DNA of 46,029 bases from an uncultured Acidimicrobiales bacterium (GTDB lineage Bacteria > Actinomycetota > Acidimicrobiia > Acidimicrobiales > SZUA-35), in assembly GCA_937958015.1 (NCBI GenBank), contig CALGOA010000041.1, positions 1 through 46,029 of the forward strand, in the 5' to 3' direction. A model generated the notes under the pieces. The model did not search any database and had not been told where the DNA came from. It saw only the letters and a program-made list of their open reading frames with translations. Positions 37,294 through 39,643 of the stretch are shown here, piece after piece. The position numbers and the translations under genes were made by a program. Every line of letters starts with the position of its first letter. The stretch's first letter is position 1.

Positions 37294-37431
37294 GGGAGGA
37301 ACTGCACCGACCATCCACCACTTGCGACGTTGATTCGACCACTCTTACGAGCAAGAATGCACTTGATTTTGGACTCTGCGCGGCGGCTCAACAGCGCTCA
37401 GAGTTAGTTTGAGTTTTTCCTTTCGTTTTGC

Positions 37432-37461
37432 TTGACGGCGGTCCCAGACCTAGTGAAGTAT
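37432..37461 (+). promoter_or_regulatory. Candidate promoter of the structured RNA
   Basis: TTGACG at 37432-37437, then either TGAAGT (37454-37459, 16-base spacer) or AAGTAT (37456-37461, 18-base spacer). A second possible pair, TTGATT (37330-37335) and AAGAAT (37353-37358) with 17 bases between, lies further upstream. Confidence 0.4.
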
Positions 37462-37467
37462 CTCTCT

Positions 37468-37938
37468 CAAGCCCAACGGGGAGCCCGCCAAATTCCGCAA
37501 GGATGGAAGCGGTCGAGCCAGAGGGATTAGGTGAGTCCCACCTGCCGAGAGGATCTCGGGAAAGGACTGTGAGGGAGCAATCCCGAGTGGCCCGGACCCG
37601 GAAGAATCGAAGCAGCTCCTTCGTTCCCGCTTCGGCGGCGGTGAGGGGGTTCGGCACACACCTCCGGACTTGGGTCCGGCCTGCCAACACCACAGCGGTG
37701 AAGGGAGGGACTACTGCCACAGGTGCCTGCCCGTATCAGTAGAACCACCGGAATCGCTCGTTGGATCACAGGTCGACGCCTGAAAGGGAGGGCCGAAAAG
37801 GAACACTGCCCGCTGGTCTTACGACCAACGGGCAGTGGAAAACAGTCAGGAGAACGGTAACCCCGATCAGATCGACTGTGGTGGATACTCATCGCCTCAA
37901 GAACCTCGGGCCTGCGGGTCCGGGGTTCTTACTTTTTT
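37468..37938 (+). ncRNA. Candidate large structured RNA, family not recognised
   Basis: A 673-base gap with no convincing protein gene is filled with consecutive perfect small hairpins. On the + strand these are AGGTG/CACCT (37529-37543), CCGAG/CTCGG (37545-37559), GGGA-GCAA-TCCC (37573-37584), CCGC-TTCG-GCGG (37627-37638), CCGGAC-TTGG-GTCCGG (37664-37679), CTACTG/CAGTAG (37711-37742), a 15-bp stem with one mismatch and loop TTAC (37804-37837) and ACAGTC/GACTGT (37842-37879). The GNRA and UUCG loops occur only in the + reading, which sets the strand. An intrinsic terminator ends it. Hallmarks of RNase P RNA, tmRNA, 6S, SRP RNA and introns are not seen. The 5' end is estimated. It could instead be the long leader of the helicase mRNA. 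Confidence 0.55.
37899..37938 (+). terminator. Intrinsic terminator before the helicase gene
   Basis: A 14-bp stem, AAGAACCTCGGGCC with GGTCCGGGGTTCTT, including two G-U pairs, closes the loop TGCG and is followed by AC and six T. It ends 16 bases before the helicase ATG at 37955, leaving no room for a separate promoter ahead of that start. Confidence 0.85.
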
Positions 37939-37954
37939 GACGCGAGGTGGTCGC

Positions 37955-39643
37955 ATGCTCGGCGGAATCTCGTGGCAGAATCGTCCGCTCATGCCTCGCA
38001 CTCTTCGCCTTCGTCCGTGGCAACGTCAGGCCCTCACCATCTTCCAGGACACGATCGGCAGCGACTTCATGGCGGTCGCAACGCCGGGCGCCGGGAAGAC
38101 GACATTCGCTCTCACCGCCGCCCGCCTCACACTGCCCAAGGTGCAGGGCCGACTGGTGGTCGTGGCGCCTACGAAACACCTGAAGTATCAGTGGGCCAAC
38201 GCAGCCGAGCAGTTCGGCCTCCATCTCGACCCCGACTGGAAACCCGCCGACGGCCTACCTCCGGATCTTCACGGTGTCGTCACCACGTACCAACAGGCCG
38301 CTACCGCCCACCAGGAACTGGCCAGCGTCTGCCACGACGGCTTTGCGATCCTCGACGAGATCCACCATGCCGGCGACGACCGAGCCTGGGGAGCCGGAAT
38401 CACGAAGAGTTTCAACACCGCCCGCCATCGGTTGGCGCTGAGCGGCACCCCCTTCCGCAGCGACGATGCCCTGATCCCCTTTCTTCAGTACAAGGGGGGC
38501 CAGGTGGTACCCGATGTCGAGTACGGCTACGGGGATGCGTTGGGTGATGGACGCGTGGTCCGCCCGGTGTACTTCCCGCGATTCGGCGGACACATGGAGT
38601 GGACCGCACCCGATGGCGCTCAGGTCGCCGCCTCCTTCGATGATCCGCTGCCCCGGACCCATGCCAACCAACGGCTTCGCGCCGCCCTGAGTGTCGATGG
38701 CGAGTGGCTGCCGACGATCGTCCGCGAAGCCAACCAGCAGCTCATGAAGATTCGCGAACGCACCCCCGACGCCGGAGGGCTCGTCATCGCGATGGACCAG
38801 GAACACGCCAACGGAATCGTTCGCCTCCTGCGAGATCGGTTTGGCATCCGCGCCACCGTCGTGGTGAGCGAGGACCCCAACGCCTCGGCCAAGATCGAGC
38901 AGTTCTCGGCCGGCTCCGACCCCTGGGTGGTAGCGGTGCGCATGATCTCCGAGGGTGTCGACATCCCCCGCCTTCGGGTGGGGGTGTATGCGACGACCAC
39001 AACGACCGAGCTGTTCTTTCGCCAGGCCGTCGGGCGCATCGTGCGATTCACCGGCGGTCGAGGCAGGGCTTTCATGTACGTGCCCGACGATCCCCGACTC
39101 CGCCATTACGCCAACACGATCAAAGAGGTCCGGCGCCACAAGCTGGACCTCTACAAAGAAGAACGCGAGCAGGCCGAACGCGCAGAACGGAACGACGACG
39201 AGGAACAGATGTCGCTGTTCGCCGTTCACTCGGCGACGATCACCGACGCCACCCACGAGGCCGACGTCGAAGCGGCCCTACGTCAGGAGCTGGAAGAGGA
39301 CCACCTCCCGGGCGATCACATGGACGACCCGGATCGGCTACAGATCGAGGAACATCCCGAACTGCTTCTGGACCTCACCACACTTCCGCCGGTGGATCCG
39401 AACAGCAGGGTCCGACCCACCGTGCCCGGCGGCCGCAAGGAACGTGAACGGCTCCGGAGCGTCAATGCCACCTGGGTGCGTGATCTGGTGCAGGCAACCG
39501 GGCTCACCCATGCCCAGGTCAATGCCGAGCTCAATCGGCTGTCCGGCGTGAAGCGGGTATCGACGGCCACCGCAGCAGAGTTGCAGCGCCGCACCGACGC
39601 CGCGAAGGCATGGCACACCCGCGAGCTCCGCTCCCACGTCTAG
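37955..39643 (+). CDS. Superfamily II DEAD/DEAH-box helicase
   Basis: A 562-residue ATP-dependent helicase. Motifs: the WQRQAL lead-in (22-27), Walker A ATPGAGKTT (42-50), DEIH (134-137), SGTPFR (163-168), the region VRMISEGVDIP (328-338) and motif VI QAVGRIVR (357-364). The C-terminal 200 residues are acidic and then basic and could bind nucleic acid. It resembles conserved actinobacterial restriction-type/UvrB-like helicases of unknown role. ATG 37955 has GAGGTGG 4 nt upstream; ATG 37991 (MPRTLRLRPW) is a credible alternative. It lies directly behind a structured RNA and terminator, so its expression may depend on read-through. Confidence 0.85.
   Translation: MLGGISWQNRPLMPRTLRLRPWQRQALTIFQDTIGSDFMAVATPGAGKTTFALTAARLTLPKVQGRLVVVAPTKHLKYQWANAAEQFGLHLDPDWKPADGLPPDLHGVVTTYQQAATAHQELASVCHDGFAILDEIHHAGDDRAWGAGITKSFNTARHRLALSGTPFRSDDALIPFLQYKGGQVVPDVEYGYGDALGDGRVVRPVYFPRFGGHMEWTAPDGAQVAASFDDPLPRTHANQRLRAALSVDGEWLPTIVREANQQLMKIRERTPDAGGLVIAMDQEHANGIVRLLRDRFGIRATVVVSEDPNASAKIEQFSAGSDPWVVAVRMISEGVDIPRLRVGVYATTTTTELFFRQAVGRIVRFTGGRGRAFMYVPDDPRLRHYANTIKEVRRHKLDLYKEEREQAERAERNDDEEQMSLFAVHSATITDATHEADVEAALRQELEEDHLPGDHMDDPDRLQIEEHPELLLDLTTLPPVDPNSRVRPTVPGGRKERERLRSVNATWVRDLVQATGLTHAQVNAELNRLSGVKRVSTATAAELQRRTDAAKAWHTRELRSHV

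Follow-up and report, generated by a model that had tools for sequence, protein, structure and literature searches.

A putative new family of large structured RNAs in Acidimicrobiia is encoded by a stand-alone gene with a covarying 3' core

The window analyzed here, a stretch of 46,029 nucleotides of DNA from an uncultured Acidimicrobiales bacterium, encodes at positions 37432-37939 what sequence comparison identifies as a stand-alone structured RNA gene with a predicted transcript of ~470 nt. The sequence-only reading of this DNA had suggested that a new class of noncoding RNA may be present, a view that our analysis supports: none of the outcomes it named as refuting was observed. Given the lack of an Rfam match, the strong covariation and the presence of homologues across several families, we are highly confident that the RNA represents a new noncoding RNA family specific to the Acidimicrobiia. 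Here, 'new' refers to the lack of a match to any described family by sequence and structure; the function may still prove to be of a known kind, e.g. binding of RNA polymerase.

The RNA gene resides in a gap that is bordered on one side by the divergently oriented gene of a 3-hydroxyacyl-CoA dehydrogenase (minus strand, start at ~37281). A helicase gene follows on the plus strand, whose likeliest start is the ATG at 37991. The mechanically derived open reading frame of this helicase begins at 37835 and crosses the terminator of the RNA, with similarity to its relatives setting in only from around amino acids 14-62. The sequence-only reading had found no protein gene in the gap, and our analysis agrees with this view: employing tblastn, the three open reading frames of the gap gave short and broken matches ending at the conserved RNA helices, no frame was conserved in the relatives, and the flanking genes end or start outside of the RNA. 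No protein-coding signature was found in the interval. Moreover, the predicted transcripts measure 478, 535, 764 and 887 nt inside one genus, which counts against a protein-coding gene. In the window, the predicted transcript spans 37467 to 37939 on the plus strand, its start (± 3 nt) being deduced from the -10 box and its end from the U-run. Given the conservation of the promoter within the genus, the earlier estimate of ~470 nt holds as a prediction.

The individual elements from which a structured RNA had been proposed could all be located, i.e. the TTGACG at 37432-37437, the GGGA-GCAA-TCCC hairpin at 37573-37584, the UUCG-loop hairpin CCGCTTCGGCGG at 37627-37638 and an intrinsic terminator (37899-37938) composed of a 13-bp stem (37899-37930) and T6 (37933-37938). 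The chain of hairpins as a whole fared less well: its elements exist, but several of them, such as the GCAA hairpin, are not conserved even within the genus, and the UUCG hairpin is conserved in part. The latter belongs to a fast-evolving, hairpin-rich middle domain (37543-37803, plus strand) that is enclosed by a long-range helix (P1, see below). The folding energy of the RNA is modestly better than expected by chance (MFE z = -2.04, with 5 of 100 dinucleotide shuffles being as good). This score alone is too weak as proof of structure, which comes instead from the comparison of homologues and their covariation. Conservation is found in the 3'-terminal 150 nt and in P1. Outside of these, the RNA is hypervariable in sequence and length, with predicted transcripts of ~345-890 nt across the family. 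A terminator of its own was present in every copy inspected, and a promoter could be recognised in most.

A blastn search in 61 relatives detected the locus in 14 genomes and located the highest conservation in the 3' part (37790-37945). This conserved core consists of three helices, the GGUGGAU motif and the terminator, arranged in the order H1, H2 enclosing the inner hairpin H3, GGUGGAU and terminator, all on the plus strand. Helix H1 (37804-37837) reads CACUGCCCG-C-UGGUC-loop-GACCA-A-CGGGCAGUG and comprises 8 bp, a conserved C.A mismatch and 5 bp; 93% of the cells of its 13 pairs are paired and 8 pairs show compensatory changes. Helix H2 (ACAGUC/GACUGU) together with the enclosed H3 occupies 37842-37879, with compensatory changes in four of the six H2 pairs. 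The hairpin H3 itself (37855-37865) has the form CGG-UAxxx-CCG with a loop beginning with UA, and all three of its pairs show compensatory changes. Next in line, the nearly invariant GGUGGAU and the adjoining ACUCAUC (37880-37893) form the 3' strand of P1. The terminator covaries as well, with compensatory changes in 11 of 12 modelled pairs in a 41-sequence alignment. Over all pairs, compensatory double changes were observed in 18 of 32 consensus pairs of a 14-sequence MAFFT alignment, which was not fitted to any model, and in 26 of 34 pairs of the 41-sequence alignment, which was fitted to the covariance model and in which 93.1% of cells are paired. The covariation score of the latter (0.505) clearly exceeded that of shuffles (0.178 ± 0.010) and of slid controls (≤ 0.085). 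Conservation and covariation among related genomes are thus both strong.

The long-range helix P1 pairs GGUGGAU and the bases following it with a segment in the 5' half of the RNA, which in the window is GGUGAGUCCCACC at 37530-37542 (plus strand). RNAalifold applied to separate subclades (the window's genus g1, g8, g11b and f23) recovered P1 independently in all four. The partners change in concert, as seen for GAG/CUC, GAA/UUC and GGACGAG/CUCGUCC, and the loci L061 and L064 carry GACGGA along with a matching partner. As RNAduplex energies that include large loops told nothing about P1, we turned to an ungapped-leaning complementarity score, compared with dinucleotide shuffles. Over 40 sequences, the pairing of cognate strands surpassed that of dinucleotide-shuffled ones (mean z = 0.91; t-test p = 1e-4). 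It also surpassed the pairing of strands exchanged among genomes (permutation p = 2e-4). Using one sequence per clade, the test still yielded p = 1e-3 to 4e-3. About half of the sequences show this signal clearly; in others, it cannot be seen. Judging from these comparisons, P1 appears to be real across the RNA family; the support is good but falls short of proof for every member. Since GGUGGAU is nearly invariant even though its pairing partner varies, its sequence would seem to matter beyond the formation of P1.

Of the 39 genomes examined from the window's bacterial family, 31 contain the RNA according to a covariance model (R1), usually as one copy. Two copies were seen in some genomes (G006, G016 and G032), and G013 carries a further one at the end of contig C13 (L198). 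Searches across the class, the phylum and a sample of families placed the RNA in f1 and in at least six families beyond the window's own (f3, f7, f19, f23, f27 and f46), all of one order, with Ilumatobacter nonamiensis YM16-303 (L122) and Ca. Microthrix parvicella (L138) among the carriers. Other classes of the phylum gave no credible match in a search that scored few candidates per genome, so that absence outside of the family is not firm; scoring more candidates gave the same picture (credible matches 6/40, a seventh match being weak). Many families of the order have no detectable copy, and this patchy presence argues against an essential universal role. Furthermore, a DNA-pattern scan of GTDB filtered with a second covariance model (R2) confirmed 55 loci, all labelled as Acidimicrobiia, Acidimicrobiales, Ilumatobacter(aceae), Microthrix or with unspecific Actinomycetota names. 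No copy was found in phage, plasmid and viral collections, where two viral contigs matched the DNA pattern and failed the covariance model. Weak R2 matches in other classes (L090-L093) were likewise discarded, as they represent generic GCCCGCCGG...CCGACGGGC hairpins and the remainder of the core is missing. Such hairpins, generic terminators of actinobacteria, possess the C.A mismatch that is conserved in H1 (G.U on the opposite strand), which gives rise to weak antisense and cross-class matches of the model.

In the window's genus, the syntenic order is dehydrogenase, RNA and helicase. The neighbours in other genera are unrelated and include an SDR, an ABC transporter, an acyl-CoA dehydrogenase, OmpA, GGDEF/EAL and FAD oxidoreductase genes. 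Because the neighbours differ between genera, we conclude that the RNA is a gene of its own and not a leader of the helicase gene, and that the helicase is an incidental neighbour. A leader or riboswitch acting in cis on the helicase could have been suspected from the window, where the RNA immediately precedes this gene in the same orientation. A terminator with its U-run separates the two, however, and in G001 (L022, 1122-2578) genes for a MerR regulator and an aldo/keto reductase intervene between the terminator and the helicase. With no constant downstream gene, this reading is refuted by the changing context and retains a close to negligible probability.

We compared the RNA with described families. 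Searches against Rfam 15 returned no match at gathering score in the window and none with E < 1 in the gap; a permissive search of the gap gave only two chance-level matches (E of 2.3 and 4.6). Across 34 relatives, the RNA likewise matched no Rfam family, the only matches being two unrelated tRNA genes. The sequence-only reading had been unable to equate the RNA with RNase P RNA, tmRNA or 6S RNA, and indeed none of these matches the locus: RNase P RNA (RF00010) of this genome is encoded elsewhere (G000:C223, 258 bits), as is tmRNA (RF00023/ARAGORN; none in the window, G000:C84 with 88 bits), and 6S RNA (RF00013) has no match at the locus and none reaching the cut-off in any of 10 genomes of the order. 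The niche of a 6S-like RNA is therefore open. With OLE, GOLLD and ROOL, the RNA shares its large size, its high degree of structure and a function that is hard to guess from sequence; it matches none of their Rfam families, however, was not found on phages or plasmids and combines a short conserved 3' core with a hypervariable remainder. The papers searched contained no description of a comparable structured RNA from Acidimicrobiia.

The promoter of the RNA gene (37432-37461, plus strand) consists of the -35 element TTGACG (37432-37437), an 18-bp spacer and the -10 element AAGTAT (37456-37461). It is conserved in G001, G002 and G004 and aligned with TTGACC...TAtgaT of the other genera. At 33 loci of these other genera, the -35 element TTGACC is found directly behind a series of ordered boxes with the consensus ...CCGGTGGACAACCGGTGGAnAA...TTCTGGGGACAACnAAGAAATCCTGnGGAnAACCCTGGGGATT..gAAAAAcctCTTGACC. 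Up to six boxes (GTGGAcAAC) occur in the same orientation at fixed positions, 11-22 bp apart, and none in reverse orientation was seen at these loci. We counted 64 boxes within 3.6 kb of upstream DNA and 5 within 97.7 kb of flanking DNA (17.6 versus 0.05 per kb), i.e. an enrichment of ~350-fold at the RNA promoter over its surroundings. A two-box pattern had 19 matches in 39 genomes, 16 of which coincide with this RNA gene, the two copies of G032 and the second, partial copy of G013 among them. Both G032 copies keep the box array. The window's own genus lacks the array at the RNA gene. Its place is occupied by a dyad, GACTCTG-N20-CTCAGAGTT (37372-37405), upstream of the promoter and conserved in the four members of the genus. 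The RNA gene can therefore do without the array.

The boxes resemble DnaA boxes, and similar sequences (TGTGGACAAC, TGCGGACAAC and GGTGGATAAC) are present at dnaA loci of the same order. An upstream cluster of DnaA-box-like sites, as expected of a DnaA-regulated promoter, is thus present in the other genera and not in the window's genus. Linkage of the RNA gene to oriC was considered and rejected, as dnaA lies far away in complete genomes. From the similarity of the boxes, we tentatively consider DnaA a possible factor behind promoter control, although the assignment is doubtful. Since the window's genus has the dyad instead of the array, DnaA control is a lead for the RNA family and not a property of the copy in the window. 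A more far-reaching proposal, by which a large regulatory RNA would be synthesized under direct control of DnaA via the ordered box array, so that the replication state would be coupled to gene expression in much of the Acidimicrobiia, strikes us as rather unlikely.

With regard to its role, we give about an even chance to an RNA that acts in trans and is bound by protein, because the gene is independent of its neighbours, is usually present in one copy, has a dedicated promoter and encodes a compact, conserved core within a variable scaffold. The variable 5' and middle regions would form this scaffold around the 3' core (H1, H2/H3 and GGUGGAU), which P1 would hold together and the intrinsic terminator would release. 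The core is the putative binding site of a protein partner, and the RNA may serve as a ribonucleoprotein regulator or scaffold, broadly like 6S or Ms1, that is independent of its neighbours and exerts no control over them. The dedicated promoter would set the amount of the RNA: in most genera, the DnaA-box-like array suggests an RNA level tied to DnaA or to the replication or growth state, and in the window's genus the different dyad may have taken over from the array as operator. As contact of GGUGGAU, a protein is our first choice and base-pairing with mRNA the second. The latter would turn the RNA into a trans-acting sRNA, with GGUGGAU as a seed for AUCCACC in mRNAs that is normally masked by P1 and unmasked by a switch. 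The near invariance of a motif whose varying P1 partner need only pair would fit such a seed, as would its position just upstream of the terminator, where many sRNAs carry theirs. Against this, GGUGGAU is engaged in P1 with compensatory changes, including the GACGGA variants with their matching partners, and in size and degree of structure the RNA goes far beyond the usual sRNA; we thus regard this reading as unlikely.

Quite unlikely, in our judgment, is that the RNA binds RNA polymerase as a strongly diverged 6S/Ms1 RNA or as a direct substitute for its function. The open 6S niche and a stand-alone, usually single-copy gene with a dedicated promoter would be in line with it, and 6S RNA is itself a stand-alone regulatory RNA of bacteria, which is a functional analogy only. 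Ms1 (MTS2823/scr3559) is likewise a stand-alone structured RNA, found in Actinobacteria without 6S, fast in its sequence divergence and encoded by a single gene with its own promoter and terminator. Its sequence diverges so much that BLAST misses it between genera (PMC9130861). However, 6S RNA is a rod of ~180-200 nt with a central bubble. Ms1, also rod-shaped with a central bubble, measures ~300 nt, and its synteny with a HAD-IB hydrolase is conserved (PMC9130861). The Acidimicrobiia RNA, in contrast, folds into a P1-closed multi-helix core within ~345-890 nt. Its neighbours are different, as Pfam analysis of 26 neighbouring genes identified no HAD hydrolase, and the phylum search gave no credible match in other classes. 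Alternatively, the DNA itself might be the functional element, i.e. a locus for DnaA titration or replication control (datA-like or iteron-like) with an incidental transcript. Up to six boxes in the same orientation that are nearly unique in each genome point in this direction, and datA, DARS and oriC also feature clustered DnaA-box-like sites, here upstream of a promoter in most genera. In contrast to those clusters, the array is not located at oriC, is attached to a conserved RNA gene and has boxes that all point the same way and keep fixed distances from the -35 element. Moreover, the covariation sits in RNA pairs, terminator included, and the window's genus kept the RNA and lost the boxes, which renders this explanation highly improbable.

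Acidimicrobiia are abundant in the sea, in soil and in activated sludge. A large RNA gene that is conserved between an Ilumatobacter isolate and Microthrix and has a multi-box promoter of its own speaks for a so far unrecognised layer of regulation in these organisms. Should the boxes bind DnaA, the initiation of replication would be tied to a noncoding RNA in a way that can be tested. With the covariance models, the RNA family should be easy to annotate. Lastly, the window contains CATCCACCAC (GTGGTGGATG on the minus strand) at 37312-37321, just upstream of the dehydrogenase start and conserved in all four genus members. This element has the same letters as GTGGTGGAT of the RNA and is possibly a regulator site or a target.
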